Below, in pieces: positions 1,509-30,219 of a DNA stretch of 41,452 bases (within the stretch, counting starts at the first letter, position 1; every line of letters starts with the position of its first letter). The notes under the pieces were generated by a model. The model was given only the letters and a program-made list of their open reading frames with translations, made no database searches and was not told the DNA's origin. Source of the DNA: Pseudomonadota bacterium (GTDB taxonomy: Bacteria > Bdellovibrionota_C > UBA2361 > OMII01); contig OMIG01000235.1 of NCBI GenBank assembly GCA_900299035.1, forward strand, positions 1 to 41,452, given 5' to 3'. Made by a program: the position numbers and the translations under genes.

Positions 1509-4500
1509 CTACCCAGAAATGCTTGCGGGTTGCGGCTCAGCGCTGTCGTGAGCGCGGTAGCTCTGTGAGCTGCGGCGGCGTTCGCGCAAGACCGATGCCC
1601 AAGGAGTCTTGGCCCGCGCGAGCTCGCTTGGCGCGCCTTCGAAGATAACCTTGCCGCCTAGCTCTCCTGGCCCTGGCCCTAGCTCAACCACCCAGTCAGA
1701 CTGAGCGATCGTGTCAGCGTCGTGCTCTATCACAAACACCGAGTGGCCCTGGTCGACCAGGCCGTGGAGCCCCTTGAGGAGCAGCGACACGTCGAGCCGG
1801 TGGAGGCCTGTCGTCGGCTCGTCGAGGATGTAGAGCGTGTGTCCCTTGCGCGAGAGGTGCAGCTCTGAGACGAGCTTGAGACGCTGGCTCTCGCCGCCGG
1901 AGAGCGTCGACGAGGGCTGCCCGAGCGTTAGGTACCCAAGGCCCAGGTCACAGGCGAGCTTGCACACCTGGTGGATCTTCTTGTGGTTGACGAAGAACGT
2001 CCGGGCCTGCTCGAAGGTGAGCTGGAGAGTCTCGCTGATCGAGGTGTCCTTGAAGCGCACCGTGTCAGCCTCAGGCGTGAAGCGGCTGCCGAGGCAGCTC
2101 TCGCACATTACCTTCGCCTCTGCGAGGAAGCTCATCTCAAGCGTTATCTCTCCCTGGCCCTTGCAGGTCGGGCAGCGCCCCTTGCCGGTGTTGTGCGAGA
2201 AGAAGCTCGGGCCCCACCCGCGTGACTTGGCCTCAAGCATGCCGGCGAACACCTTGCGGATCTCATCCCAGATTCCTAGGTACGAGGCAGGAGTCGAGCG
2301 CGAGGTCTTCCCGATCGGCTGCTGGTCGACCACTAGGAAGCGCTCGATCTCAAGCGAGCTCTCGACGGTGCCGGTTGAGCCCTTGAAGATCTTCTTTGAG
2401 GCCCCGGACGAGGAGAGAGCCTCTGCGATTACGCCGTGCACGAGCGAGCTCTTGCCGGAGCCAGACACGCCGGCAACGGTGACGAGGCTCTTGAGGGGCA
2501 GCGTCACGGAGAGCTTGCGCAAGTTGTTGACGGAGGCGTTGAGCACGCGCAGGGATCCGCCAGATCGAAGCTCGCCTTCCCCTCGCAGCGCGAGCGGCAT
2601 CGCCAGCGCCCGGCCAGTCGCAGAGCGCGGCGCAGCGATTGCGCCCTCGACGGGCCCCTGGAACACGACCTCTCCGCCGTGCGTGCCAGCGCCGGGGCCG
2701 ACGTCGATCACGTGCTCAGCGGCGAGGATGTTGTCGATCTCGTGCTCTATCTGGATGACAGTGTTGCCGCGCTCCTTGAGCTGGGCGAGCTGAGAGAGGA
2801 GACGCTTGTTGTCGTCTGGGTGGAGCCCCGCGCTCGGCTCGTCGAAGACGTACGTGACGCCGCACAGCGGGGAGCCCATGGCGGTGCCGAGCCTGAGGCG
2901 CTGGAGCTCGCCGTTTGAGAGCGTGGCGCACTCTCGATTGAGGGCGATGTGGTCGAGCCCGAGGCTTGAGAGGGTCTTGAGCTTGCCGTCAAGCTCTCGC
3001 ACGATCGGCTCAACGATCTCCTTGGCGGAGGAGTCCTTGGAGAGCCGCACGAGGAGCGCGTGGAGCTTGGGTGCTGTGAGCATCGAGAGCTCGTGGATGT
3101 TCTGGTCGAAGAGCCGGATGTTTCGCCCGATCTCGTTGATGCGCGCGCCGCCGCACTCGGGGCAGGGCTTGTTCTTGAGGCTGCCGTAGCCGTCGCACTT
3201 CTTGCAGCGCCCGCGGCGGGAGTTAAACGAGAGGTCTTCTGGGTCCGGCTTGAAGAAGCCGCGCTGGCAGATGCGGCAGGTGCGCTCGGAGCTAAAGACG
3301 CGCTCGCTCGATCCGCTCAACACCACGACTGTGCCGCCGCCGATGGCGAGCGCTTGCTTGACTCCTTCGGCGATCAGGTCGGCAGGCATGCGGCCTGCGT
3401 TGAAGCTCGCCGTGATGAAGTCGATTGAGTGCACGGTGCTCTTCTTGAGCCCCTCCTCAACGAAGCGAGAGGGCGGAGCGACCGCGCCGTCGACCCGCAC
3501 CTCGCTCACCTCGGTGTCGATGGCGCGCTGGAAGACCGCCTTGTGGTTGCCCTTCTTCTGGTTGATGACGGGCGCAAGGAGCCGCACCGAGCCTGAGTAG
3601 TTCTGCTTGATGGAGGCGGCGATCTGTTCGGCTGAGAGCGGAGAGATCGACTCGGCTGGGTGGTCGGGGCAGAACTGCACGCCGACCTTGGCGTACAGGA
3701 GCCGCAGGAAGTTGTAGACCTCGCTCATCGTCGCGACAGTCGAGAGAGATGAGGGCTGGAAGGTGTGCTGGTAGACGCAGATCGTCGGCTGGATGTTGCG
3801 GATGTCGTCGATCGCCGGCTTCTTGAGCTCCTTGATGAACTGCCGCGCGTAGGGCGACAGGCAGTCGAGGTAGCGCCGCTGTCCCTCGGCGTACAGGATG
3901 TCTTTGGCGATAGTTGACTTGCCTGAGCCAGAGACGCCGGTGATGGTGATGAGCGAGTTGAGCGGCACTGAGAGCGAGACGTTCTTTAGGTTGTGCTCGC
4001 GGGCGCCGACGATCTCAATGGCCGTGGGCAGGGGCTTCGCTGCTCGGCCCTTGCGCTTCTCGGCTGCCTGCGGCTTTCGCCCCTTGGCTGGCCCGTACTG
4101 GGCGACGAACTCTGCCAGGTACCTTGCAGTGAGGCTGACGCTTGGGGTTGAGACAAGCTCCTGCGGCGTGCCCTGTGCCACGACCTCGCCGCCCTTGAAG
4201 CCGCCTTCGGGCCCGAGGTCAACGATCCAGTCCGCCGCAGCAACCAGCCGCAGGTTGTGCTCAACGCACAGGATCGAGTGGCCTGAGTCGCGCAGGAAAG
4301 CGAACAGCTCGATGAGACGCTCGACGTCGCGCACGTGCAGCCCGGTCGTGGGCTCGTCGAAGAGGAAGAGCGATCTTCCCCTGGCGCCCTCTACGATGTG
4401 CGGCACGAGTTTTAGCCGCTGCGCTTCGCCGCCCGAGAGCTCGCTCAGCGGGTGCCCGAGCGTGATGTGCCCGAGGCCAAGCTGCTTTAAGACCCTGCAC

Positions 4501-6905
4501 ACGCTAGCGATGAGAAGCTCTGCCTGGAAGAACTCGGCGCAGGCGTCGACGCTCATCGAGAGGATCTCGTGGACGTTCTTCCCCTTGTAGGTGACTTCAA
4601 GAACTGGCGCCTGGAAGCGCATCCCGAGGCAGGACTCGCACTCGATGAAGACGTCGCTCAGGAACTGCATGTCCTCGCGGATGAACCCGGCCCCCTCGCA
4701 CGCTGGGCAGCGTCCGGCGTTGACGTTGAAGGAGAACGAAGAGCGCGAGAGGCCGCGCGCCTTGGCGGCTTCGGTGCCAGCCAAGAGGTCGCGCACCCGG
4801 TCCCAGACCTTGGTGTACGTTGCGATGTTTGCCCGCGGGGTCTTTGAGAGCGGCGACTGGTCAACGAGCAGCACGTTGCTGACGTGCTCAAAGCCTGACA
4901 CCTGCGCATCAACGGTGGCCTCGCCTGGCACAACGCCCTTGTGCAGCTCCCACGAGGCTTCAATCACCTCGGTCAGCAGCGAGCTCTTACCGCTGCCGGA
5001 GACGCCGGTGAGGCACACGAAGGCGTTGAGCGGGATGTCGAGCGAGATGGACTTTAGGTTCCTGTTCTTGGCGTGCCTGACGGAAAGCGTCTTGTCGAAG
5101 CTCGGCCGCAACGCCGACGGAAAGAACGGCGCCATGCGAACGCCCTGCCAGCCCTCGCGCGGCCCGAAGTAGGTAACTTCGCCGCCGCGCTCGCCAGCCT
5201 CGGGGCCAAGCTCAAGGATCGAGTCAGCGGCGCTTAGGCAGTCAGGGTCGTGCTCGACGACGGTCAGCGAGTTGCCGCGGCTGCTCAAGTCGCGCAGCGC
5301 CTTGACCAGCTCCTCGGTGTCACGAGCGTGCAGTCCGACAGAGGGCTCGTCGAGCACGAAGTGAGTCGAGATGAGGTTGCTGCCGAGCGCAGAGACGAGG
5401 TTCACGCGCTGGGTTTCGCCGCCAGAGAGGGTGCGCGACTGCCGGTCGAGCGTGAGGTACGGGAGGCCCAGGGCGAGCAGGTAGCGCAGCCTGCCGATGA
5501 TACCCTTGAAGACGTCGGCGAGCTGGCGCGGGAGCTTCTTGCTGGCCTTGAGCGACTCTTCGAGCGCCACGAACCAGGCGTAGAGGTCTTCAAGCGGGAG
5601 GCTTGCGATCTGGGCGATGCTCTGGCCCTGGATGCGGTAGGCGAGGGCGTCAGCCTTGAGGCGCGACCCGTTGCACTGCGGACAGTCGACCTGGCCGCGG
5701 TAGCGGGCGAGGAACACGCGCACGTGCATCTTGTACTTCTTGCGCTCGAGCCACTTAAACCAGGGGTAGATGCCGACGAACGCGCGCGACTTGTGGCTGA
5801 AGATGAGGTCCTGCTGCTCTTTCGACAGAGAACCCCACGGCTTTGAGGTCGGGATCCCCTGCGCCTTGCAGAACTTTAAGAGCTCGCGGTGCTCCCACGA
5901 CGCGGCGTTGCCGCGCCAGCACTCAACAGCGTGGCCCTCAATCGACTTTGAGTGGTCCGGCACGCAGCGGTGCGGGTCAACCACCAGGATCTTTCCGAAG
6001 CCGTTGCACTCGGGGCAGGCGCCTATCGGGTGGTTGTACGAGAAGAGCGCTGGGCGCGGCCGTTCGACCGACACCTCGCCGTCGCCGCAGTGGTAGGAGC
6101 TCTTGAAGGTGTGGGTTTCAAAGCCGCGCTCCACGGGCACCTCGCCGCGGTAGACGGAGTGGCGAGCCAGGGGGCGCAGCAGCTTCGCGCGCAGCTCCAC
6201 GACGAAAACGGTTCCGGAGCCGAGTGAGAAGCACTGCTCGAGCGAGTCCTGCACCTGCTTCTTGCTGAAGCCCTGCTGGCGGCAGCGGTCAATCGCCACG
6301 ACCACCTCCTTGGTCTTCTTGGGAGGGGGAGAGTCCTCGAAGCTCTCAAGCGAGGCAGACCGTTGGTCGAAGTAGCGCGAGTACCCGAGCGTCTGCAGCC
6401 GGTCGAGCAGCTCTGGAGAGTTCTTGCTCTTTACGCCGAGCACGAAGGTCGCGTCGGGCTTAGCCTCGCACCAGCGCTCCAGGAGCGAGGCGAGCGACGA
6501 GGGGTCCCAGCGCGACAGCTCAAGCCCGCAGGTCGAGCAGACGGGCACCGCTACGTTGCTCCAGATGATCTTGAGGAAGTCGTTAATGTCGGTCATCGAG
6601 CCGACGGTGGAGCGCGAGTTTAAGATCCTCGTCCGCTGCTGAATGGCGATCGCCGGACGGACGTTTTCAATCAGGTCCACGCGCGGACGCTTCACCTTGT
6701 CGAAGAACTGCCGGGTGTAGGGCGAGAACGTCTCGATGTAGCGGCGCTGTCCCTCGGCGTAGATGGTGTCGAAGGCGAGCGAGGACTTGCCCGAGCCAGA
6801 GAGCCCAGTGATTGCGACAAAGGAGTCGTGCGGGATCTCAAGGACTAAGTCCTTGAGGTTGTTCTCGCGGGCCTTCGTGATGGAGAGGGCGTTGTGCTGC
6901 GGCAT
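1509..6905 (-). CDS. uvrA: Excinuclease ABC subunit UvrA, tandem-duplicated double-length form (~1799 aa)
   Basis: Four Walker A motifs (GLSGSGKSS, GVSGSGKSS, GVSGSGKST, GVSGSGKSS), ABC signatures LSGGETQR/LSGGEAQR/LSNGELQR/LSGGESQR, CxxC zinc modules; two UvrA-like halves ('YAEGQRRYIETFSPYTRQF' and 'YAEGQRRYLDCLSPYARQF'). Start at MPQHNAL preferred over the ORF start 6935. Confidence 0.95.
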   Translation of the reverse strand: MPQHNALSITKARENNLKDLVLEIPHDSFVAITGLSGSGKSSLAFDTIYAEGQRRYIETFSPYTRQFFDKVKRPRVDLIENVRPAIAIQQRTRILNSRSTVGSMTDINDFLKIIWSNVAVPVCSTCGLELSRWDPSSLASLLERWCEAKPDATFVLGVKSKNSPELLDRLQTLGYSRYFDQRSASLESFEDSPPPKKTKEVVVAIDRCRQQGFSKKQVQDSLEQCFSLGSGTVFVVELRAKLLRPLARHSVYRGEVPVERGFETHTFKSSYHCGDGEVSVERPRPALFSYNHPIGACPECNGFGKILVVDPHRCVPDHSKSIEGHAVECWRGNAASWEHRELLKFCKAQGIPTSKPWGSLSKEQQDLIFSHKSRAFVGIYPWFKWLERKKYKMHVRVFLARYRGQVDCPQCNGSRLKADALAYRIQGQSIAQIASLPLEDLYAWFVALEESLKASKKLPRQLADVFKGIIGRLRYLLALGLPYLTLDRQSRTLSGGETQRVNLVSALGSNLISTHFVLDEPSVGLHARDTEELVKALRDLSSRGNSLTVVEHDPDCLSAADSILELGPEAGERGGEVTYFGPREGWQGVRMAPFFPSALRPSFDKTLSVRHAKNRNLKSISLDIPLNAFVCLTGVSGSGKSSLLTEVIEASWELHKGVVPGEATVDAQVSGFEHVSNVLLVDQSPLSKTPRANIATYTKVWDRVRDLLAGTEAAKARGLSRSSFSFNVNAGRCPACEGAGFIREDMQFLSDVFIECESCLGMRFQAPVLEVTYKGKNVHEILSMSVDACAEFFQAELLIASVCRVLKQLGLGHITLGHPLSELSGGEAQRLKLVPHIVEGARGRSLFLFDEPTTGLHVRDVERLIELFAFLRDSGHSILCVEHNLRLVAAADWIVDLGPEGGFKGGEVVAQGTPQELVSTPSVSLTARYLAEFVAQYGPAKGRKPQAAEKRKGRAAKPLPTAIEIVGAREHNLKNVSLSVPLNSLITITGVSGSGKSTIAKDILYAEGQRRYLDCLSPYARQFIKELKKPAIDDIRNIQPTICVYQHTFQPSSLSTVATMSEVYNFLRLLYAKVGVQFCPDHPAESISPLSAEQIAASIKQNYSGSVRLLAPVINQKKGNHKAVFQRAIDTEVSEVRVDGAVAPPSRFVEEGLKKSTVHSIDFITASFNAGRMPADLIAEGVKQALAIGGGTVVVLSGSSERVFSSERTCRICQRGFFKPDPEDLSFNSRRGRCKKCDGYGSLKNKPCPECGGARINEIGRNIRLFDQNIHELSMLTAPKLHALLVRLSKDSSAKEIVEPIVRELDGKLKTLSSLGLDHIALNRECATLSNGELQRLRLGTAMGSPLCGVTYVFDEPSAGLHPDDNKRLLSQLAQLKERGNTVIQIEHEIDNILAAEHVIDVGPGAGTHGGEVVFQGPVEGAIAAPRSATGRALAMPLALRGEGELRSGGSLRVLNASVNNLRKLSVTLPLKSLVTVAGVSGSGKSSLVHGVIAEALSSSGASKKIFKGSTGTVESSLEIERFLVVDQQPIGKTSRSTPASYLGIWDEIRKVFAGMLEAKSRGWGPSFFSHNTGKGRCPTCKGQGEITLEMSFLAEAKVMCESCLGSRFTPEADTVRFKDTSISETLQLTFEQARTFFVNHKKIHQVCKLACDLGLGYLTLGQPSSTLSGGESQRLKLVSELHLSRKGHTLYILDEPTTGLHRLDVSLLLKGLHGLVDQGHSVFVIEHDADTIAQSDWVVELGPGPGELGGKVIFEGAPSELARAKTPWASVLRERRRSSQSYRAHDSAEPQPASISG

Positions 6906-7097
6906 GAGACAACCAGTGTACCAAGTTGACGGCAAAATTACAGTTCAGGAAGGCGCTGGAGAGAAACATTCAAGAGCGTGCGGGAGTCGGACGCAGGCGA
7001 GCAGGGGCTTTGCCTCCAAGCACCCTACCAAGCTGGGGCTCTCAGGGGGTACAGTGGCGACACTTTGTGAGGGACGACGTCCATATATAACAACAGC

Positions 7098-17705: not shown

Positions 17706-17775
17706 TGCGCTAGCAGCATGCCTCGGGCCTGATGCGCTACGGCGCTACGTCAACGAACTCGACGTCGCCGGTTTC
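17706..17775. repeat. Left copy of ~70 bp direct repeat flanking the 1,560-aa gene
   Basis: TGCGCTAGCAGCATGCCTCGGGCCTGATGCGCTACGGCGCTACGTCAACGAACTCGACGTCGCC...; matches 22787-22870 with one substitution and two fewer 8-bp GGCGCTAC units. Confidence 0.95.
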
Positions 17776-18008
17776 TGCCTGACAGCCAAGGCTACCTTAC
17801 CCTGGTCGGTGACAACCCCGGCCGCGTTGCTAGCCTCATTCGGCACTTGAAGGCAGGTGTTCCTTTAAAGTAGGAATTCGCCAGACCCTACGAGTTTTCC
17901 GTAAAAGTAACCGCTGGCTTGTAACTGTCAGGCGCCTTTACAACCATAATAGTCCGAAACAGCACGGGATTGGCCCCCATCCCCATATCCCTGGCAGGAG
18001 AATGGACG

Positions 18009-21000
18009 ATGGTAATGGCTAAGCATGCGGCAACGACCCCTGGGGCGCGCGAACCGGCAGACCGACTGGCCGTTCGCGATAGTGCACCAACTCTCAAAGC
18101 TACCCCGAGTACGGAATCAGAAAAAGCTAACAGGCAAGACCATGCCCTTGGCGAGATTACAGCCCATTACGGCGTCCTCAAGAAAGACCACCCTGTTCAC
18201 AAATTTGTCGCCGCGCGACTCCACTTACTCATCGACGAGGTGCCTGTAACCGACCGGCCCCACGTGTACGTGCTTGGAAGGTCAGGTTATGGAGTAAACG
18301 CAGGAGCAACAAAAGATGGCCACATTTTCGTTACTCCCGAGCTACTCACCTTCGTAAAGAGCGTTGAGGAGCTCGACTTCATCCTGCTGCACGAGTTCAT
18401 TCATCTTGCACACAGCCACCACGCCGCGCAGGAGAAATTGGGAGACACCGTCTTGTCATCCCTCGGTATTCAGCGGGTACACGAATACGATGCGGACCTC
18501 AATGCGTTCATTCTGCTCGCCCAACCCAAGCGAGGGTCCTCGCCCCTCGGTGCGCTCACATGCCTAGAACGATTTCGGGACAAGGACCCGAAGGGATGGG
18601 ATCTTGCGCACGGAAATCTGAGCGACCGCATCATGAACCTCAAAATGTTCTCTCTCTTCCGCGATCTCTCCGGAGAAGGAGCTCTCTCTGGCGACTTCGG
18701 GTCTCTCACAAAAAAGCTTCGTTCCATGCCCAGCTTCATCGCCCGCGAGGTTGCGGAGCTCCCCCACGGCAGTCGAGTTGCCACCATTCTAAGACATCCT
18801 CCAGATGGCCACCGTTACGACACGTATCGCAAAGAGCTCATCGAAGCGATCCTCGATTCCGGCACGCCATCTCTTCGACGGGCGATTCCCTCCATCATCT
18901 CGCATCTTGAGGAGTATGGAGATTCTGATGGCGCGGTGCATAGGGCCCGTACGAGCGCCTACAAGGAGGCGCTCCAGCATGCCTACGGGCGGCTTTTCGC
19001 AACTGTTGCGGCATGCGCAACGGAACACAACCTAAGCGTTTTGGAGGGCCAGGTGCTGCTTGGCGTTGAATTGACGCTTCTTGATGAAACGCCGGAGCGC
19101 ATCGAAACCAATCTTACAGGGAGGGCCCGCTCTACAGCTCTTGCAGCCTTGGCCTCTCTAGCCACGTTTTCAGCCTCTGCCGAAGCGATCGAGCGAATGA
19201 GCCATATTTTGGCCCTCGTTGAGGACGGAGCGCCATTTTCCTGTACGGAGCGCCTCTTTTACGATGTCGTTCGTCCGGCGCTAGGGGAGAACTGTGCTTT
19301 CGATCGAGACAGCGACGAGACAGTTGATATCAAGCTCTATTTCTCATCAGTGCAAAAGCTAACTAAGGCCCTTAGCGCGCTAAGCCACAGGCACGACAGG
19401 TCGGCAGAGCGCGTGCAGAATGAATTTGATGGAATGGCGGTCTTCACGCTCGCGGCCCATCTGGCAGACATCCGTAGCGATCAGCTCTCAGGCCTAAACT
19501 CGGAAATCGCCTCGCTTCATCCGTCCCTTAAATCGGACAAGCGCGCGCTCTCGCAGGCTCTTAGCTCTGTGATGCAACAAGAGCACACAAGCGAGACGAC
19601 GGCTGCCGTCACCCAATTTGCCAAAGAGGAGCTTGAGGTGCTTTCGATAGCCGAGACACAGGCGGCTCTTATTGAAATCTTCACCCAGGTAGAGCGCTTT
19701 ATATTGGAAGATCGCTCCCCGAATTCTCTCGACCGTATTGAAGCTCTTTTTAAGAGGGCTTTCCGAGTCTCGCTTAACCTCCCGACCTCTATATCTTGCG
19801 ATGATGTAGTGGGCGATGAGTCCAAGAACCTGACCTCATCGTACACCCCCTACTCCATTTCAGTCCATCTGATGGAGGTCGCTCTAGCGCGCGCATTCCC
19901 TGATCTGCCGACCGAGGGACGGCGAGACCACATTGCTCACCTGAATTTTCAAGAGAGCGCTCGCCTTAAGAAGCTTGAGGTCGGCTTCCTCCATACGCTG
20001 TGCTCGAGCCATGGAGAGCGCCAGGATGCGATTGACCGAACCGAGTATATTGTCCAAGTCCACAGCCAATCCTTCGAAGAGATCGCAGCCCTCGTCGATG
20101 AGATTCACAGCGAAGCGCCGGAGGCATTCATACGGGAGGAATCTCTCGCTCCTCGGTCCTTTAAGCCGGAACCCGACATCGCGCTGCATGAGTATGCAGG
20201 CAACGCGCTTCTCTCGGAGCTCAAAAACTCTCAGTCCCTCTCGGAAAAAGGAAAGCTCGAGCGCATCTACAAATTCATTACCGTGTGCCATGTCTGTGAA
20301 ACTGAGGAGCAGCGTGACGCAGGCGTATTTCGAGAAATCCTTGCTATCGGTGAGGCATCCCTTCGAGCCGTCTATCAAGACGACAGGAATTCGCCTGAGT
20401 TTATTCGGCACGCCATCGCCGTAAGCTTTTTCGTGAGCGATGGCGTTCTTAGTCGCTCAATCCAAAGAGAGCTTCTTTTGAGGCTCATTGACACAGCTGG
20501 CTCTGCCACTACAGCCGAGGAGATTTTTTCGAAGCTAAAAAGACAACAGGGGCACCTGAACCTAGAAACTATCGAGAAGCTCGACGAGGGGGCAAGCCAG
20601 GCTTCGGACATCCGATCGATCGGCCGACGGTGCCGGGAGCATCTCCTTGCGAATGATGCTGCAGCGTCGCAAGCGGGCCGGCTTGTCCTTGGGGATATGA
20701 TCGCAACGGGAACGAAGCGGTTTGACTTTCACGAGCTTCTCTCGGTTGGGCTTGACACGTCTGAAAATGACAGCCGTCTCAGAGACGAAATTGCCAAGCG
20801 TTGGTGGGATAGCGCCTCGGATGTCGTGACGAGGGACTTGCAATGGAACGACCTGCCGGAACCGAACGAGATTCCGGAGCGCCTAGATGATGCCAAGGCA
20901 TGGATGTCCACGTTGAACGCCACGACACCAAGGAACCTCGCCAAGGAGTTTCGTCCCGCGGAGCTGGGCTCTCTCGATCCCGCTCATTTTACCGCCAACG

Positions 21001-22688
21001 CAATTCGGCAAAATATGTACAGCCTGGGAATCGCCGAGCGACTGGTCGTCTTGCGGAAGCTCACAAGCGATCCCACGAAAGGGATTTTGATATCGCCGGA
21101 GAGAAGGGAGAAGGTCGCGCAAACCCTGCTGGGCAAGATGGTATCAAACGCTGGTGACGATCCGTTATCGGAGCTCTCCTCGATGGCTTTTCGGGCTCTC
21201 TTTCGCTCGGTTCATGGAGATGACCTTGCGCTCGCCGTCACTCCCATGCTCTTGGACCGGTTTTTGCGGGCTCCGTCATCCCCGTCCACATGGAGGCACT
21301 GTGCAGCGGAGCGAGCATCCACATTTCTGGCCGATTGCCGGTGGGGCAAAGCCTCTTCACAGTCCTCGAGGCGCACTATTAGCGCTTTGCACTCTCGACT
21401 ACTAAACTGCGTCACGAATCACTTCGAATGGGCCCTGAGCGGGAGTAATCCTCGAACGCAGCGCTCAAGCATTCCTGCCCTTGAGGGGCTAATAGAGCTT
21501 TGTGCAATCGAGGTGTCTCCAAAGGCAAGCGTATCCCGTACGGATGCGATATCGTTCATTCTCGACTTTTCGAGAAATCTACAAACGCCAGGCACTCGAG
21601 CGCTTCAGCTCCTCGGTGGGATCGTTGAGCTTCCAAAGGAGATTGAGAGGGAATTTCTACAGGTGTATGACGCCCAAAAGGGGCAATCGAAATCAAGCGC
21701 TCTTGCGACGATCGATCGAGCGCTGCCGGAGTTCGCATCACGAGTGGCCTCGCTGCATCGAATCGGCGGTGGGGCGCTCTACTCGGTATTCCTTGCGGAG
21801 CTTTCGAGTGGAGGAAAGGAGGTAGTTCGAGTCGTTAACCCAAACCCCGAATACCACACGCAGCGAATCGTGCAGAGCATGAAGGCTGCCCAAAAGCAGC
21901 TTGCGCGGGAGGATTCACGATTCGAGATCGGTGAGCAGGTCATTAATCTTGTGGACGAGTGGATCACCGCCGAGCTTCAGGACCAAACCTACGAAGCTGA
22001 TGACAAGGCGTTTCGAGCGCGTTGGAATCATTGGACACCGTCTCGCAAGTGCCCCCTCTCGATATACGTGCCGGAAAACTATCCATCCGGAACGCTCTTA
22101 GTGAGACGAGAAGAGTTTATTCCCGGGAAGAACTTTACGGAGCTAAGCTCGCTCGCGGAGGCAGACGGACGACTTGCGAAACAGGTTGTTGCACTAGCTG
22201 CGCAACACTATGTGGAGCAGCTTACCGGGTCGGCCATGGAGAATATCTGGGGTTCAGAGCTTCTCGTCCACTCAGACATCTCCCCGGGAAACCTGCGAAT
22301 TATGGACGGCGGCAAGGTCGCCATCCTTGATCGGTCAATGTTTCTCAAATTCTCGGTTAAAGACCGGAAGCTGCTCAAGGCGGTTATGGACGCAAAGACT
22401 CCGCACCAGCGCGCTTCAGCCGTTGTGTCGGGGTTAGCGGAGCTCCAAGACGACGAGGTTCCAAAGAGCGAGGTAAGGGCAATCATTGAGCGAGTGAATG
22501 CATCGCTCCAGGGCGAGTCCTCGCTTGAAGGCACGATGCTTAAGGGGCTCATCGCTGCTCAGCGGGAGGGATTAAAAGTGCCGCTGCGCTTTCAGTTGCT
22601 GGTAAAGAACCTGAATTCTTTGAGGGTCATGGCTGAAAAGGTTGGATTCTCAAGCCTCGCAGAGGCCCTCGATTTTAAGTGGTCGTAG
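18009..22688 (+). CDS. ~1,560-aa multidomain protein: N-terminal M48-like zinc metallopeptidase, long mostly uncharacterised middle region, C-terminal diverged ABC1/UbiB-like kinase domain
   Basis: 'GHIFVTPELLTFVKSVEELDFILLHEFIHLAHSHH...HEYDADLNAFILL' (HExxH + downstream ExxxD); C-term 'IGGGALYSVFLAELSSGGKEVVRVVNPNPE' and 'LVHSDISPGNLRIMDGGKVAILDRSMF' (cf. HxDxxPGN...LD). ATG at 18009 has AGGAG 8 nt upstream; the ORF start 17970 is TTG. Confidence 0.85.
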   Translation: MVMAKHAATTPGAREPADRLAVRDSAPTLKATPSTESEKANRQDHALGEITAHYGVLKKDHPVHKFVAARLHLLIDEVPVTDRPHVYVLGRSGYGVNAGATKDGHIFVTPELLTFVKSVEELDFILLHEFIHLAHSHHAAQEKLGDTVLSSLGIQRVHEYDADLNAFILLAQPKRGSSPLGALTCLERFRDKDPKGWDLAHGNLSDRIMNLKMFSLFRDLSGEGALSGDFGSLTKKLRSMPSFIAREVAELPHGSRVATILRHPPDGHRYDTYRKELIEAILDSGTPSLRRAIPSIISHLEEYGDSDGAVHRARTSAYKEALQHAYGRLFATVAACATEHNLSVLEGQVLLGVELTLLDETPERIETNLTGRARSTALAALASLATFSASAEAIERMSHILALVEDGAPFSCTERLFYDVVRPALGENCAFDRDSDETVDIKLYFSSVQKLTKALSALSHRHDRSAERVQNEFDGMAVFTLAAHLADIRSDQLSGLNSEIASLHPSLKSDKRALSQALSSVMQQEHTSETTAAVTQFAKEELEVLSIAETQAALIEIFTQVERFILEDRSPNSLDRIEALFKRAFRVSLNLPTSISCDDVVGDESKNLTSSYTPYSISVHLMEVALARAFPDLPTEGRRDHIAHLNFQESARLKKLEVGFLHTLCSSHGERQDAIDRTEYIVQVHSQSFEEIAALVDEIHSEAPEAFIREESLAPRSFKPEPDIALHEYAGNALLSELKNSQSLSEKGKLERIYKFITVCHVCETEEQRDAGVFREILAIGEASLRAVYQDDRNSPEFIRHAIAVSFFVSDGVLSRSIQRELLLRLIDTAGSATTAEEIFSKLKRQQGHLNLETIEKLDEGASQASDIRSIGRRCREHLLANDAAASQAGRLVLGDMIATGTKRFDFHELLSVGLDTSENDSRLRDEIAKRWWDSASDVVTRDLQWNDLPEPNEIPERLDDAKAWMSTLNATTPRNLAKEFRPAELGSLDPAHFTANAIRQNMYSLGIAERLVVLRKLTSDPTKGILISPERREKVAQTLLGKMVSNAGDDPLSELSSMAFRALFRSVHGDDLALAVTPMLLDRFLRAPSSPSTWRHCAAERASTFLADCRWGKASSQSSRRTISALHSRLLNCVTNHFEWALSGSNPRTQRSSIPALEGLIELCAIEVSPKASVSRTDAISFILDFSRNLQTPGTRALQLLGGIVELPKEIEREFLQVYDAQKGQSKSSALATIDRALPEFASRVASLHRIGGGALYSVFLAELSSGGKEVVRVVNPNPEYHTQRIVQSMKAAQKQLAREDSRFEIGEQVINLVDEWITAELQDQTYEADDKAFRARWNHWTPSRKCPLSIYVPENYPSGTLLVRREEFIPGKNFTELSSLAEADGRLAKQVVALAAQHYVEQLTGSAMENIWGSELLVHSDISPGNLRIMDGGKVAILDRSMFLKFSVKDRKLLKAVMDAKTPHQRASAVVSGLAELQDDEVPKSEVRAIIERVNASLQGESSLEGTMLKGLIAAQREGLKVPLRFQLLVKNLNSLRVMAEKVGFSSLAEALDFKWS

Positions 22689-22786: not shown

Positions 22787-22870
22787 TGCGCTAGCAGCAT
22801 GCCTTGGGCCTGATGCGCTACGGCGCTACGGCGCTACGGCGCTACGTCAACGAACTCGACGTCGCCCGTT
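22787..22870. repeat. Right copy of the flanking direct repeat, overlapping the 3' end of the phosphodiesterase gene
   Basis: TGCGCTAGCAGCATGCCTTGGGCCTGATGCGCTAC(GGCGCTAC)x3 GTCAACGAACTCGACGTCGCC; see 17706-17775. Confidence 0.95.
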
Positions 22871-23325
22871 TCGGGCGCAAGAAACGCAACGGTGTGCCTC
22901 TCCGCTGCGTAGAGCGCGCCTGGGTTGATGACGCGAGTCTTGCCAACGATCTCGTCTCGCTGCTCGTGAGTGTGGCCGTGGAGCACGTAGTCGTGCTGCT
23001 GTGAATCGATAGCCTCGTTCAGCACGCGGATGCTCGTGCCGTGGTAGGCAAAGAAGCTCTTGCCTGCGTGCGAGAAGACGAGCGTGTCTTCTATCTCTGG
23101 GAAGCCTAGCTCCAGGCACATCTTTTTGAGCCCTGAGCGCTCGAAGTCGTTGTTGCCGAACACAAAGCGCATCGGGAGGCCAGCGAAGCGCTCAACGGTT
23201 GGGGGCGAGACGATGTCACCGCAGTGGATGACGATGGACGGCGATCGCTTGCGCAGGATCTCTATGCCGCGCACGACGAGGGGGGTGTTCTCGTGGGTGT
23301 CTGAGATGATGCCGACCAGGGTCAT
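22834..23325 (-). CDS. yfcE: YfcE/MJ0936-family metallophosphoesterase (phosphodiesterase)
   Basis: 'GIISDTHENT', 'VIHCGDIVS', 'FVFGNNDF', 'YVLHGHTHEQRDEIVGKTRVINPGAL'. Confidence 0.93.
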   Translation of the reverse strand: MTLVGIISDTHENTPLVVRGIEILRKRSPSIVIHCGDIVSPPTVERFAGLPMRFVFGNNDFERSGLKKMCLELGFPEIEDTLVFSHAGKSFFAYHGTSIRVLNEAIDSQQHDYVLHGHTHEQRDEIVGKTRVINPGALYAAERHTVAFLAPETGDVEFVDVAP

Positions 23326-24310: not shown

Positions 24311-24554
24311 TAGTGCCCCTTTCAGAGATTTTTTCACGCTAGCTCCAGCGGTAGGGCACTAGGTTTTCTCTGGCGCGCCTTCGGGCTCCTGCCCCCAGTC
24401 GCACACGCTCCGAGCTGCGGCGAGCCCCAAAAACCGGGACTCGCCTCCGCGTCGCGTCAGGCACCTACGCGTGGCTTCGGTGCCTGGGCTGCCATCCATG
24501 GCAGCCCCGGTGCTGGGCCTTAGTAAGTGAAAAAAATCTCTGAAACCCGCACTA
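24311..24554. repeat. ~244 bp element bounded by imperfect terminal inverted repeats; MITE-like or structured intergenic RNA
   Basis: Left TAGTGCCCCTTTCAGAGATTTTTTCAC (24311-24337) vs reverse complement of right end TAGTGCGGGTTTCAGAGATTTTTTTCAC (24527-24554); internal hairpins incl. GGGCTGCCATCCATGGCAGCCC. Confidence 0.6.
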
Positions 24555-27500
24555 GTACGAGTAGCTGCGCGAAGGAATCCCGCTAGCGCTCGCCTGCCGC
24601 ATGAGCGGGTCGAGGGGCTCAAGGGCCGAGGCGTCGATGTAGGCGATCTCTCCGACGCGTTCGAGGGTCCCTGTGACAAAGAGCACGGCGGCCATCATCA
24701 CGGTGCGGTGGAGCTTCTCAAAGAGGGCAGGGCGCACGATGACGTTGAACGAGCCGGTCTCGTCCTCAAGCGTTAAGAACACCACACCCTTTGCGGTGCC
24801 GGGGCGCTGCCGGATGATGGCGAGCCCGGCGGCGGATGCTCGCGCTCCGGGGCGCAGGCCGTGCCTGGCTGAGAGCCCCTCGGCAGTGTGGGCGCCACGG
24901 CTCTCAAGGTGAGAGCGCAGGAACTGTAGCGGGTGCGCCCTGAGTGAGAGCCCGGTGGTTGAGTAGTCCTTGAACATCTCGTGCTGTAGCGTTGAGGCAG
25001 GCAGCCTGTCGGAGCTGCTCGATGCGCGTGGGGCAAGGAGCGCGTCGAGCGGAGCAGGTTTCGGCGCAAGCTCCTGGATCTCCCAGTGTGCGGGGCGGCG
25101 CCCGAGTGAGGCGCTGCCGAATGCGTCAGCGTGGGCGAGGCGAGAGAGGAGCGGCTTTGAGATCTTGGCGCCGCCGCGTCCCCACAGCTCCTTGATCGAA
25201 GTGAACTCGCCGCTGTGCTCGACGGACTCGCGCAGCGCGCGGGCGCCATCTTCGCGCAGCCCGCTCACGAGCCTCAGGCCGAGCCGCAGCGTGGGAGCGC
25301 CGGTGCCGTCGTAGGCAACGGAGCAGTCCCAGGAGCTCTTGTTGGCGTCGATGGGGGCGGCCGTGACACCGTGGCGCTCGGCGTCACGAACGATCTGGGC
25401 CGGTGCGTAGAAGCCCATGGGCTGGCTGTTTAAGAGCGCGCACGCAAACTCAGCCGGGTAGTGCCGCTTGATCCAGGCAGAGGCGTACACGAGCAGGGCG
25501 AACGACGCGGCGTGTGACTCTGGGAAGCCGTACTCGCTGAAGCCCTTAATCTGGTTGAGGCAGGTGTCGGCGAACTCCTCGGAGTAGCCGTTTGCGAGCA
25601 TGCCTTTGGTGATCTTCTCCTTGAACGCCTCGATGACGCCCTTGTGCGTCTTCCAGGCTGCCATTGCGCGCCGCAGCTTCTCTGCTTCGCCAGGGGAGAA
25701 GTTAGCGAGCGTGATGGCGAGCCGCATCGCCTGCTCCTGGAAGATCGGCACGCCGAGGGTCTTGCCCAGGATGCGCTCGACTCGCTCGTCGGGGTAGTGA
25801 GGCTTCTCAAGCCCAGCCCGGCGCCGCAGGTAGGGGTGCACCATGTTGCCCTGGATAGGGCCCGGGCGCACGATGGCTACCTCGATCACGATGTCGTAGA
25901 AGCAGCGCGGCTTGAGCCTCGGCAGCATCGACATCTGCGCGCGCGACTCGACCTGGAACACGCCGATGGTGTCTGAGGCGCACAGCATGTCGTACACCTG
26001 TGGGTCTTCCTGTGGAACCTGGTGCAGCTCAATTCGCTCGCCGCGCCGAGCGCTCACGAGCTCCAGCGCCTTGCGGATGCAGGTCAGCATGCCGAGCGCC
26101 AGGATGTCTATCTTGAGCATCCCCAGCTCCTCGATGTCGTTCTTGTCCCACTCGATCATGGTGCGGCTCTCCATGCCGGTGTTGATGATCGGGACGATCT
26201 CGCACAGGGGCTCGTGCGAGATGATGAAGCCACCCACGTGCTGCGAGAGGTGACGCGGGAAGCCGATCAGCTCCTGCGCGATTGAGAGGGTGTTTCGGAT
26301 CGTTGCGTCGCCTGGCGAGAGCCCAAGGTCACGCAGGGTGGTGTCGGTGATGGTGTACTCGGTCCAGCGGTGCACCTCCTTTGCGAGCCTGTCGACTATC
26401 TCTAGCGAGAGCCCGAGAGCCTTGCCAACTTCGCGCACGGCGCTGCGCGCGCGAAAGGTGATGACGGCAGCGGCGATTGCAGCGCGCTCCCTGCCGTACT
26501 TGCCGTAGATGTACTGGATAACCTCTTCACGCCGCTCGTGCTCAAAGTCGATGTCGATGTCGGGAGGCTCTTGCCGCTCCTTGCTCACGAAGCGCGCGAA
26601 GAGGAGGTCTATCTGCGCCGGGTCAACGGAGGTGATGCCGAGGCAGTAGCAGACGGTTGAGTTGGCGGCAGCCCCGCGCCCCTGGCACAGGATGCCTCTG
26701 CTGCGCGCAAAGGAGACGATGTCGTGGCAGGTGAGGAAGTACTTCTCGTACTGGAGCTCGTGGATGAGCACGAGCTCCTCGCCAATCGATGCGCGCACGC
26801 GCTCAGGGACGCCGTGCGGGTAGCGCTGCCGCGCGCCCTCCTCGACTGCTTCAGAGAGCTGCTCGAGCGGGCTCTTGCCGGCAGGGCAGATCTCTTCCGG
26901 GTACGTGTACGTGAGCTGGTCGAGCGAGAACTGCCGCGCCACCTCGGCTATCTCCTGCGTGCGCGTGATGGCGTGGGGGATGTCACGAAAGAGGCGGGCC
27001 ATCTCACGCGGGTCCTTGAGGTAGCGCTCGCCGTTCTGGAAGAGCCGCGGTCCGGCTTGCTGCACAGGCACCCCTTCGCGGATGCAGGTGACGACGTCGT
27101 GCAGGGGCTTCCTCTCAGGGATGTGGTAGTGCACGTCGTTGGTGGCAACGACAGGGAGGCCCAAAGCCTTTGCTGCCCGCATTGCGGCGTCGGCCATCCT
27201 CACGTTGCTTGGGCCGTAGTTTAAGGTGAGCGCAACCGAGAGCAGCCGCGGGTCGGGGCACGCGTCGCGCAGAATGGAGGCCAGCTGCACGAAGATGTCG
27301 CTGCGTGACGCCGCTGCAGGGCCACCTTCAGTGAAGCCGGCGTAGTGCAGCCGTGTCTGGAAAAACGGCGGGATGATGATCGTTGAGAAGTGCCCGAGGT
27401 GCGGCAAGAGGCTTTCAAGGCTCACGAAGAAGTCGTTCTTTGAGACGTCGTGCTTCCCAAGCGTGATGAGCCGGCAGAGTGCGGCGTACCCTTGGCGGCT

Positions 27501-27785
27501 GGTGGGGTAGAGCAGGAGCGAGCTGCGGCAGAACTGCGAGGCTCGCTCAGCGAGCTGGCGCGAGACGCTCCCCTCGAAGTCAACCTCAACCCTGCAGCCG
27601 ACGAGGAGCTGCACGCCAGCGTCTTTTGCTGCGGTGTGGGCCCGCACGATTCCCGAGAGGGTGTTGTAGTCGGTGATTCCGACGGCTGAGAGCCCTAGCT
27701 CTGCTGCGCGCCACATGTACTCGTGCGGGTGGCTGGCGCCTCGCAGGAACGAGAAGTTTGTCGCTGTCTGAAGCTCACAGTACAT
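24552..27785 (-). CDS. dnaE2: Error-prone DNA polymerase DnaE2 (ImuC)
   Basis: 'MYCELQTATNFSFLRGASHPHEYMWRAAELGLSAVGITDYNTLSGIVRAH', 'PPDIDIDFEHERREEVIQYIYGKYG'; adjacent to imuB. Confidence 0.95.
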   Translation of the reverse strand: MYCELQTATNFSFLRGASHPHEYMWRAAELGLSAVGITDYNTLSGIVRAHTAAKDAGVQLLVGCRVEVDFEGSVSRQLAERASQFCRSSLLLYPTSRQGYAALCRLITLGKHDVSKNDFFVSLESLLPHLGHFSTIIIPPFFQTRLHYAGFTEGGPAAASRSDIFVQLASILRDACPDPRLLSVALTLNYGPSNVRMADAAMRAAKALGLPVVATNDVHYHIPERKPLHDVVTCIREGVPVQQAGPRLFQNGERYLKDPREMARLFRDIPHAITRTQEIAEVARQFSLDQLTYTYPEEICPAGKSPLEQLSEAVEEGARQRYPHGVPERVRASIGEELVLIHELQYEKYFLTCHDIVSFARSRGILCQGRGAAANSTVCYCLGITSVDPAQIDLLFARFVSKERQEPPDIDIDFEHERREEVIQYIYGKYGRERAAIAAAVITFRARSAVREVGKALGLSLEIVDRLAKEVHRWTEYTITDTTLRDLGLSPGDATIRNTLSIAQELIGFPRHLSQHVGGFIISHEPLCEIVPIINTGMESRTMIEWDKNDIEELGMLKIDILALGMLTCIRKALELVSARRGERIELHQVPQEDPQVYDMLCASDTIGVFQVESRAQMSMLPRLKPRCFYDIVIEVAIVRPGPIQGNMVHPYLRRRAGLEKPHYPDERVERILGKTLGVPIFQEQAMRLAITLANFSPGEAEKLRRAMAAWKTHKGVIEAFKEKITKGMLANGYSEEFADTCLNQIKGFSEYGFPESHAASFALLVYASAWIKRHYPAEFACALLNSQPMGFYAPAQIVRDAERHGVTAAPIDANKSSWDCSVAYDGTGAPTLRLGLRLVSGLREDGARALRESVEHSGEFTSIKELWGRGGAKISKPLLSRLAHADAFGSASLGRRPAHWEIQELAPKPAPLDALLAPRASSSSDRLPASTLQHEMFKDYSTTGLSLRAHPLQFLRSHLESRGAHTAEGLSARHGLRPGARASAAGLAIIRQRPGTAKGVVFLTLEDETGSFNVIVRPALFEKLHRTVMMAAVLFVTGTLERVGEIAYIDASALEPLDPLMRQASASGIPSRSYSY

Positions 27786-27800
27786 GCTGCCTGCCCCTTC

Positions 27801-29456
27801 TTACGCCCACACGCCGTGCAGGAACCACTCGAGCGTTCCTTGGTCTCGGTACACCCACAGCCAGCGCCCGGAGTCGTCCTGCACCTTAAAGTAGTCACGC
27901 TCGCGCAGCTGTAGGCCTGCGCCCTGAGAGCCGTGAGCGGAAGGGGCGCTCCACCACTCGGGCGCTATTCGCTCTGGGCCGATGCCTGAGATGATCTTTA
28001 GCTTCTTTCCTCTCCACAGCAGGAAGGACGGTGGCTTGTCGGGGAGCATCGCTATCGTTGTGACCGGCTCTGGCTTGGCAAAGAGCAGCGAGGGGCGCTC
28101 GCGCAGGCTGTATGGGGCGATTGGCTCATGCAGGGAGTCATTAGGGCCGGCGCCCGCGCCAAACGCTGGAGCGTGGGCAAACGACTGCTCAGGGATGTAG
28201 GAGCGGGTGAGCGCAGCGCGGCTGACGCGCGCCTTGCCGAGCCGCACGGCGAAGGCGTTCATTAGCTCCGCGCGGCTGCGCGAGGCAGCGGCAGTGTCGC
28301 GGGACGGAGAGAGCGAGCGCTGCTCAGCAGCTGCGTCTTCGACCTGTGCGGCGCGCAGCGTTACGTCGTGCACCTCGCCGAAGAAGCTCATGCCCTCTAC
28401 TATCGGCTCGATAATCTCTGAGAGGTGCGAGATGTCGTCAGTTGCCGCCGCCAGCGGAAACTCCTTCGTCGCTGTTTGGCCTGATGAGTCGTGGATTGTG
28501 AGCAAGAAGAGCTTTGATCGCTTGCTGCTGGCGCGCAGCTGCGACAGGAGTGCGGCGAAGAGGTGGTGAATGGCGATCGTGACGCTCTTTCGGCTCGAGA
28601 GCGGCGGCTCAAAGGTTCGGCGCATGCGGTATGAGCGTGGCGTGGCTATCGTGTGGAGGCGCTCTTCGACCGCGCCGAGCGCCTGCTCAAGCCGGTACAG
28701 GAGAAACTTCCCAAAGCGCTGCGAGAGAGAGCGGCGAGGCAGGTTGAGGAGCTGCCCGATGAGCGATATGCCGACCTCTGAGAGGGCTGCGGCACACTTG
28801 TGGTCAACCCTGAGCGCCTGCACCGGGAGGAGCGAGATGGCCTGCGGGATCGAGTCGCGCGAGCTGACTACAGACGGCACGTCAGGCGCGCCGTACCGGG
28901 AGAGCGCCCACGCTGCGCCAAGCGTGGGCGCAACAGCGATGCGGGCAGAGCTGCTCATCAGGGCGCGAAACGAGCTGGCGAACGCCCGAGTGTCGCCGTG
29001 CAGCCGGCGCGTTCCGGTCATGTCGAGCGTGATCCCGTAGTGGAGCGGGCTCACGCCCGAGAGGAGCCCTGCTGTGCGGGCGTTAAAGAGCTCGCTGTCT
29101 AGGGCAACGAGCGGCGAGAAGCGCAGGCACCACACGGCGAGCCGGTACAGGGCGCGGCAGTCGCGCACTGGGTCAAAGGCCTCAACGTGCGCGCCAGGAG
29201 CCATCGCGCGCGCAAGCGGCAGCGGCGTGCCGATGCGGACCCCGCAGCGCGCGGCGATCTGGCAGCAGCGCTGCACCGTGAGGTCGCTTGAGCCTGTGCC
29301 GCTCAGGAGGACAGGCGACGTGCTGCTGGCCGCAGGGCTACGTGCCGAACTTTTGAGCTGGAGCTTGCGCCTCGTCACTTCCACTGACCACTCTGGGAAG
29401 TACGCGCAGAGATAGGTCCGCTCCGAAGCCGCATCTGTATCCATGTTCATAGTCAT
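27801..29456 (-). CDS. imuB: DNA polymerase Y-family protein ImuB
   Basis: 'YLCAYFPEWSVEVTRR', 'LDMTGTRRLHG', C-terminal 'WWSAPSAHGSQGAGLQLRERDYFKVQDDSGRWLWVYRDQ...WFLHGVWA' typical of ImuB. Confidence 0.93.
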   Translation of the reverse strand: MTMNMDTDAASERTYLCAYFPEWSVEVTRRKLQLKSSARSPAASSTSPVLLSGTGSSDLTVQRCCQIAARCGVRIGTPLPLARAMAPGAHVEAFDPVRDCRALYRLAVWCLRFSPLVALDSELFNARTAGLLSGVSPLHYGITLDMTGTRRLHGDTRAFASSFRALMSSSARIAVAPTLGAAWALSRYGAPDVPSVVSSRDSIPQAISLLPVQALRVDHKCAAALSEVGISLIGQLLNLPRRSLSQRFGKFLLYRLEQALGAVEERLHTIATPRSYRMRRTFEPPLSSRKSVTIAIHHLFAALLSQLRASSKRSKLFLLTIHDSSGQTATKEFPLAAATDDISHLSEIIEPIVEGMSFFGEVHDVTLRAAQVEDAAAEQRSLSPSRDTAAASRSRAELMNAFAVRLGKARVSRAALTRSYIPEQSFAHAPAFGAGAGPNDSLHEPIAPYSLRERPSLLFAKPEPVTTIAMLPDKPPSFLLWRGKKLKIISGIGPERIAPEWWSAPSAHGSQGAGLQLRERDYFKVQDDSGRWLWVYRDQGTLEWFLHGVWA

Positions 29457-30219
29457 CCTCCACGGTGACGGTCCACGCGGTGACAGCGGCAGAGCCGCCC
29501 TTGAGGCGCTTGAGCGAGAGATCCCACGCGGGCGCCTCGCTCGGCGATGGGATGGGGGTGAGAGACCAGCTCGTCATCGCTGCGCTCGGAGTAGGCTGCT
29601 CACGGTGGCGCTTGAGGAGCAGCGCCGTTGTGCCGTGTGCGCGCGCAGAGAGGGAGAGGCGCCGGGTGGTGGCAAGCGAGACGCGCGGCGTGTCTGCCAC
29701 CACAAGCTTCACTGCAGGAGAGCGAAGCGCGGTTTCGAGGGCCCAGAGTGAGAGCTTCTCTGTGGGCGGATCAACGAAGATGCAGGAGGAGAGGCGCTCC
29801 GGGGGGAGCGAGAAGGGGGTTGGCCAGCAGCGCCGGCCGATCCACACGACGAGCAGCGCACAGGGATCGTTCGCCGATGAGCGCCCCCACCCACTAGCGC
29901 CTGAAGCCTCGCAAGAGTCGAGGGCGTTCCGTGCGAGCAGGGCAGGCAGGGCGAAAGGGTGCGTGACGAGACCGCTCGCATCGTTCATGCTCAGCTCGTG
30001 CACGGCTCCGCACGCAAGGCCGCCGAGGGGCAGGCACTCGTCGATATCAGCGGCGCCGAACGGGATGACATCCCGCGCCGTTGAGCGCTGCTGCCAGAGA
30101 GGGGTGTCGCTCGGCTGGGCACCCTGCCACACCACCCCTTGGGCCAGGAGCGACTGCAGGGCGCAGGGAGGGGTCTCAGGGAGCGCAGGGATAGCGGGGT
30201 CGGTACGGGTAGGAGCCAT
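29338..30219 (-). CDS. imuA: ImuA-like (RecA/SulA-like) mutasome protein
   Basis: Position upstream of imuB-dnaE2; 'DECLPLGGLACGAVHEL', 'WDLSLKRLKGGSAAVTAWTVTVEDDYEHG' resembling the ImuA C-terminus. Confidence 0.8.
   Translation of the reverse strand: MAPTRTDPAIPALPETPPCALQSLLAQGVVWQGAQPSDTPLWQQRSTARDVIPFGAADIDECLPLGGLACGAVHELSMNDASGLVTHPFALPALLARNALDSCEASGASGWGRSSANDPCALLVVWIGRRCWPTPFSLPPERLSSCIFVDPPTEKLSLWALETALRSPAVKLVVADTPRVSLATTRRLSLSARAHGTTALLLKRHREQPTPSAAMTSWSLTPIPSPSEAPAWDLSLKRLKGGSAAVTAWTVTVEDDYEHGYRCGFGADLSLRVLPRVVSGSDEAQAPAQKFGT

Follow-up and report, generated by a model that had tools for sequence, protein, structure and literature searches.

The ABC1/AarF/UbiB proteins (ADCK and COQ8 among them; PF03109) make up a large and ancient kinase-like family whose biochemical role is debated and whose members are known mostly as membrane-linked lipid factors. 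UbiB, Coq8, and COQ8A are ATPases for which no trans protein-kinase activity has been demonstrated (PMC7263595). In COQ8A, the substitution A339G, which restores one glycine in the alanine-rich loop, reverses the preference for ADP and enables Mg-ATP autophosphorylation; removal of the KxGQ motif raises this autophosphorylation, and the substrate pocket of COQ8A is otherwise occluded (PMC4718504). In plants, members of this family share a location with a member of the M48 metallopeptidases (HtpX, Ste24, BepA, Oma1, and PGM48; PF01435), since ABC1K1/3 kinases and the M48 protease PGM48 both reside in plastoglobules (PMC12587418). The plant enzymes are separate, lipid-droplet-bound proteins without a long helical middle, whereas the bacterial protein described here carries both families on one chain; homology between the two arrangements is not established. 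In the literature that we searched, the coverage of which is incomplete, we found no published description of an M48-ABC1 fusion.

The stretch of DNA analyzed here (the window, 41,452 nucleotides) comes from a freshwater bacterium and contains an open reading frame whose 1559-residue product matches both Peptidase_M48 and ABC1 above the curated Pfam cut-offs. Pfam finds nothing significant between these two matches, and hydropathy reveals no transmembrane helix in the protein, the best 19-residue window scoring 1.36. At the level of sequence, these results show an M48 domain, about 940 residues without a family match, and a divergent ABC1 kinase domain on one polypeptide that is predicted to be soluble. 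The features of the locus are as follows.

17706-17775, unstranded: left direct repeat, a duplicated 3' end of the downstream phosphodiesterase gene yfcE plus trailer (local alignment)
17996-18000, plus strand: Shine-Dalgarno-like AGGAG, 8 nt before the ATG at 18009 (sequence)
18009-22688, plus strand: single-chain protein of 1559 aa with M48 domain, helical middle, and ABC1 domain (open reading frame, full-length homologues)
18141-18653, plus strand: M48-type metallopeptidase domain, residues ~45-215 (Pfam M48, profile-profile)
18390-18404, plus strand: HEFIH zinc-binding motif, residues 128-132 (H128, E129, and H132 invariant in four homologues)
18483-18497, plus strand: EYDAD, residues 159-163, with predicted third zinc ligand E159 and D163, E-x3-D (invariant in four homologues)
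18726-21548, plus strand: fast-evolving middle, residues 240-1180, predicted all-helical (AF2 model, Foldseek, identities)
21561-22685, plus strand: divergent ABC1/UbiB-type kinase domain, residues ~1185-1559 (Pfam ABC1, profile-profile)
21597-21608, plus strand: RALQ, residues 1197-1200, at the KxGQ position with the Gln kept (wider alignments; narrower ones put a gap here)
21765-21776, plus strand: GGGA, residues 1253-1256, at the UbiB Ala-rich loop (alignments; invariant in close homologues)
21828-21830, plus strand: R1274 at the position of the beta3 catalytic lysine (alignments with E. coli UbiB and other ABC1s)
22269-22292, plus strand: HSDISPGN catalytic loop, residues 1421-1428, with D1423 and N1428 (invariant in four homologues)
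22329-22331, plus strand: D1441, putative metal-binding Asp at the DFG position, AILDRS (invariant in the ten-kinase alignment described below)
22787-22872, unstranded: right direct repeat, including the 3' end of yfcE (alignment to the left copy)

An in-frame TTG lies at 17970, 5' of the ATG start at 18009. Full-length homologues of the gene occur in two other congeneric genomes (G002:C108, 59% identical; G006:C743, 45%; and G006:C77, 43%), and these three loci were found again in a public genome collection, in Deltaproteobacteria bacterium isolates ZE-3nov15-121 and HTM.30. All four close homologues match both Pfam families, and residues H128, E129, H132, E159, D163, D1423, N1428, and D1441 are invariant among the four, which share 41-59% identity. 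Synonymous sites are close to saturated, and pN/pS values run from 0.22 to 0.32 in the kinase, from 0.25 to 0.48 in the M48 part, and from 0.42 to 0.60 in the middle. The open reading frame has no internal stop and its GC3 is uniform along its length (0.60-0.61).

Much of this had been anticipated by the initial annotation, which was read from the letters of the sequence. It had proposed an M48-like core at the N-terminus, and the Pfam match at residues 71-140, together with the profile-profile comparison, agrees; likewise, the ABC1 match at residues 1256-1460 falls inside the range in which a kinase had been predicted. Its candidate third zinc ligand in HEYDAD corresponds to the invariant E159, its ABC1-like loop HSDISPGN and metal-binding Asp in AILDRS are both invariant, and the VVRV that it read in place of VAVK at the kinase lysine position corresponds to R1274, which is Arg in all four close homologues. 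The roughly 1,000 linking residues in which it recognized no motif are those in which Pfam has no significant match, and the hydropathy profile bears out its remark that no transmembrane helix is obvious.

The M48 assignment rests on both profile and motif evidence. The Pfam match at residues 71-140 (E=3.7e-7) scores 30.6 bits, where the cut-off is 20.3. Comparison of the M48 part of the four close homologues with the stand-alone M48s of the phylum using hhalign gives 96.3% and E=1.6e-9, as opposed to E=0.1 for the reversed control. As in M48 peptidases, the gluzincin signature of HExxH and E-x3-D is followed by an H(P/G)...R segment: here, E-x3-D lies 26 residues after HExxH and precedes H201 in HGNLSDRIMNL (HP in relatives), an order that is M48-type. 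The 26-residue spacing differs from the ~65 residues that separate HExxH from the third ligand in the stand-alone M48s of the phylum, and the domain also differs from known M48s in lacking a transmembrane helix or TPR and in forming the N-terminal part of a 1559-residue chain. Across the wider fused family described below, HExxH is present in every protein that reaches the N-terminus (11 of 11), while an HExxH within the first 220 residues is expected by chance in ~0.4-2% of shuffled proteins; E-x3-D is also kept, with G027 having Asn in place of Asp. A tree of M48 domains gives values of 48/72 that speak neither for nor against a single origin of the fused ones.

At the other end of the chain, the ABC1 match (residues 1256-1460) has an E-value of 2.7e-7 and a score of 30.4 bits against a cut-off of 22.9. 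With hhalign, the kinase part aligns with canonical ABC1s over 314 columns, which begin in the N-terminal extension and reach the end of the C-lobe (97%, E=8.4e-11, as opposed to E=0.32 for the reversed control). It retains the HxDxxxGN loop as HSDISPGN, with the catalytic Asp and the predicted metal-binding Asn, the DFG-Asp as D1441, and the Gln of KxGQ. Its score of 24.9 bits is far from the NCBIfam UbiB equivalog cut-off of 487.55 bits. Unlike UbiB, the protein has no C-terminal transmembrane tail and its kinase is fused to a protease, and three hallmarks of the family are replaced: KxGQ by RALQ, the Ala-rich loop by GGGA, and the beta3 Lys by Arg.

The first of these hallmarks, K.GQ, is absent from all four close homologues. 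Small alignments suggested that KxGQ had been deleted, an explanation that we set aside when the addition of divergent fused relatives revealed its replacement by RALQ; nor can the KGQ at residues 1224-1226 be the motif, since it sits after the helix that comes behind KxGQ in UbiB. The KxGQ lysine is thus Arg in the window protein and Lys in its relatives, whose motif is Kx(G/A)Q or close to it. The Ala-rich loop is likewise missing in its usual form; Gly, as in GGGA, is also found at this loop in one archaeal AarF that was compared. In place of a beta3 Lys paired with an alphaC Glu, the protein has R1274, the alignment of which is anchored by a Pro four residues on and which is invariant in the four homologues. 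Elsewhere in the fused family, the beta3 position is Lys in G012, G007, and both G032 proteins, Arg in G029:C125, and Gly, Cys, or Ser in the others. The alphaC Glu position varies with the register of the alignment, being D1331 in one and Y1328/E1329 in another, and given this dependence we dropped the idea of a coupled K-to-R and E-to-D swap of the salt bridge.

An alignment and profile of ten fused-family kinases, termed A9, has only seven invariant columns, Q1200 (the KxGQ Gln), P1278, D1423, G1427, N1428, D1441, and G1521. The G011 kinase, which lies outside A9, has Gln in place of the catalytic-loop Asn. A lysine, K1533, is kept near the position of COQ8A R611. In the AF2 model of the piece that contains the kinase part (mean pLDDT 52.8), the order of strands and helices is compatible with a protein-kinase-like fold, and no Foldseek match reached E<=1e-3. 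From the retained residues, we infer that the kinase part binds nucleotide and probably uses ATP. An arginine at the beta3 lysine position usually cripples kinases. Catalysis by the kinase part is uncertain because the beta3 lysine is replaced by Arg, Gly, Cys, or Ser in most members, and the domain may work as a true kinase, as an ATPase, or as a pseudokinase that senses nucleotide.

The middle is the least conserved part of the protein, with identities to the three homologues of 50, 35, and 31%, as compared with 78, 64, and 63% for the kinase. We modeled the protein with AF2 from four sequences in two overlapping pieces, for which the mean pLDDT is 63 (residues 1-980) and 52.8 (residues 600-1559). 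Residues ~256-850 are all helix in the model, with pLDDT mostly 70-90. The best Foldseek matches of the middle in the PDB are mostly alpha-solenoids (FANCD2, transportin, and CAND1), none of them at E<=1e-3, and a HEAT-like superhelix is a reasonable guess for its fold at the modest confidence of the model. A PDB sequence search with each part of the protein returned nothing significant.

A search for other proteins of the same architecture, as the initial annotation had suggested, covered 47 genomes of the phylum, first with the ABC1 family and then with the A9 profile. Both ends are present in 11 proteins from 8 of these genomes; with two further kinase-bearing proteins that are cut by contig ends (G007:C215 and G029:C125), the family is scattered over 9 of the 47. 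Beyond the close homologues, Pfam finds M48 and ABC1 in G012:C185 (1544 aa; its M48 match, at E=1.3e-3, is below the cut-off), G032:C92 (1456 aa), G032:C76 (1478 aa), and G029:C232 (2293 aa). The A9 profile also matches G027:C11 (1506 aa, E=1.9e-27), G011:C30 (1615 aa, E=4.7e-7), and a second G002 protein, C21 (1669 aa, E=3.8e-6). These three have an N-terminal HExxH, and their assignment rests on the family profile and motifs because Pfam finds no ABC1 in them and M48 weakly or not at all. Most members have 1187-1304 residues between HExxH and the catalytic loop; the second G002 protein has 1352, and the protein of 2293 aa has 1536. Between subfamilies the middles are unalignable, with BLAST and hhalign finding similarity in the kinase alone.

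In a maximum-likelihood tree built with 11 canonical ABC1s and one methyltransferase protein for comparison, the 13 fused kinases fall on one side of a branch (94/92), a grouping that we take as support and not proof because several branches are long. The methyltransferase protein, G029:C265 (L056:3017-12085), is a 3022-aa chain with Methyltransf_28 in place of M48 and a C-terminal ABC1-like kinase. The M48-middle-ABC1 layout is no one-off fusion, given its recurrence in several subfamilies of the phylum that have diverged strongly. Because we searched a single phylum and, beyond it, scanned a wider genome collection for patterns, the family may be broader still. Within the genus its distribution is patchy, with some member in 6 of 13 genomes (in one of them cut by a contig end). 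Two divergent copies occur in several genomes. A strong canonical ABC1/UbiB match is absent from all 13 genomes of the genus, while several are present in other families of the order.

Nine congeners lack a fusion gene between the coxD end of the cytochrome oxidase operon and the phosphodiesterase gene yfcE, and in three of the nine an Old Yellow Enzyme gene comes after coxD; in the window, the fusion gene sits at this point. In G002, the gap at this junction is 338 bp and holds no small reading frame. In G003 (L108:8728-9355) and G012 (L109:7859-8479), the junction holds a small reading frame that appears by eye to be PEBP-like (YbhB-type), and on this account the junction between the Old Yellow Enzyme gene and yfcE seems to accept different accessory genes. 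The GC3 of the fusion gene, 0.61, is the minimum of the window, in which the other genes have values of 0.68-0.86. The direct repeats that flank the gene align with a score of 95, as compared with a maximum of 27 for shuffled sequences, and the two copies, of 70-86 bp, differ by two mismatches and a 16-bp tandem-unit indel. Given the empty site in nine congeners, the lowest GC3, and the flanking direct repeats, the window copy is a recent single-gene insertion. There is no integrase inside the inserted segment, and at the other fused loci no flanking direct repeats stand clearly above shuffled controls. A link to the cytochrome c oxidase operon was considered and dropped, the operon being syntenic without the fusion gene in nine congeners. 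No partner gene is conserved across the fused loci, and the neighbors share no theme; by locus, they are Band 7 and TauE, DUF2950 and biotin carboxylase, sigma-70 and racemase, PAS histidine kinase and HDOD, and Pho4 and porin.

Three other parts of the window merit description in their own right. At 1509-6935, the translation is a 1808-aa UvrA-like protein whose single chain seems to join two ABC ATPases of the UvrA type; some bacteria are known to have such double UvrAs. At 24552-30219, downstream of yfcE and tonB, a DnaE2-type polymerase (Pfam DNA_pol3_alpha), an ImuB-like IMS_C protein, and an open reading frame in the ImuA position together look like a mutasome cassette. The contig start, 1-66, retains Illumina P5/Nextera adapter, with an exact AGATGTGTATAAGAGACAG at 48-66 and P5-like sequence before it, and an open reading frame that runs from 50 (MCIRDS...) begins inside this adapter.

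The explanation that we favor, with somewhat less than even confidence, is that the fusion is a self-contained regulated protease, nucleotide-gated by its ABC1 part and carried as an accessory, mobile gene. The helical middle would read a trigger or hold a substrate, and the ABC1 part would bind ATP or ADP, with R1274 or the Lys or Arg at the KxGQ position substituting for the beta3 lysine. Nucleotide binding, or phosphorylation of a target or of the protein itself, would then open or position the zinc protease, and the protease would cut a specific cytosolic protein. That the protease and kinase parts work together is suggested by the fact that both have been kept on one chain while the middles have lost alignable similarity. 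The sequences also argue for a middle that would specialize in what is recognized. Because the gene is accessory and moves horizontally, a conflict or stress role fits better than housekeeping and is plausible.

A narrower statement of role, possible but held with some doubt, is that the protein is a conflict or defense effector in which the middle recognizes either an invader or a host protein that has been perturbed, whereupon the kinase-licensed protease kills or halts the cell. This is a reading of role and is compatible with the mechanism of a nucleotide-gated protease. The patchy presence in the genus, the two divergent copies in several genomes, the fast-evolving middle, and the horizontal insertion of a single gene with direct repeats all speak for it, as does the locus of G006:C77, 3' of which (L021:9320-15305) lie a MoxR-type AAA ATPase of 661 residues, a protein of 622 residues that contains HELGH and ends in a vWA-like part, and two LRR proteins. 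MoxR-vWA pairs form the core of known conflict systems (PMC7159879, the main text of which names neither M48 nor ABC1/UbiB), and among the fused loci the association is found at this one only. Relatives of the vWA-like neighbor occur in G003:C34 and G006:C153. Also against a defense role, PADLOC models give no match beyond weak partial ones in one member and none in six relatives, the phage and viral collections hold no relative, and plasmids hold only a generic AarF. The initial annotation had likewise entertained a sensor or defense function; its architecture, an M48 domain, a long middle, and an ABC1 domain on one soluble chain, stands and recurs in divergent subfamilies, while the function that it proposed stays conjectural.

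The two ends could instead be independent enzymes, a true kinase for protein or small molecules and a protease, that act in the same pathway, with the middle as a passive scaffold. The catalytic Asp, Asn, and DFG-Asp are kept in 10 of 10 A9 kinases, and the Ala-rich loop has become GGGA, but the beta3 lysine has been lost in most members and the characterized UbiB, Coq8, and COQ8A are without demonstrated trans protein-kinase activity (PMC7263595), so that we regard this arrangement as rather unlikely.

Far less probable is a quality-control factor for lipids or quinones, in which a UbiB/COQ8-like ATPase joined to an M48 protease would echo the pairing of ABC1K with PGM48. Such roles are known for both families, plastoglobules hold ABC1K1/3 together with PGM48 (PMC12587418), and the window copy has a cytochrome c oxidase operon nearby. 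However, the protein has neither transmembrane helices nor the UbiB C-terminal tail, and the cox neighborhood is incidental, being intact without the gene in nine congeners. The fusion also cannot be a general substitute for UbiB, because a genus without a strong canonical UbiB carries it in some genomes only. The lipid or quinone role that the initial annotation had raised is thus unlikely.

An assembly chimera, against which the initial annotation had cautioned, or a decaying pseudogene can be practically dismissed in spite of the fragmented metagenome assembly and the adapter in the first 66 bases of the window, given the full-length homologues in two independent assemblies, the uniform GC3, the lack of an internal stop, and purifying selection with pN/pS well under 1.

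Returning to the nucleotide-gated protease, the recurrence of the same layout with very different middles suggests a family of self-contained kinase-plus-protease machines. Given that the ABC1 domain is soluble here and shares its chain with a zinc protease, the output of the protease could report the action of the ABC1 nucleotide switch. With its rapidly diverging middle and its clean single-gene insertion, the fusion is a candidate accessory effector. Taken as a whole, the proposal that an ABC1-type nucleotide switch licenses an M48-type protease by way of a diversifying helical reader, in a mobile immune or stress effector encoded by a single gene, is one that we advance tentatively, as a possibility short of a probability. 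If it is true, the combination of ABC1 switch, protease, and reader on one chain would be a previously undescribed class of self-contained protein.
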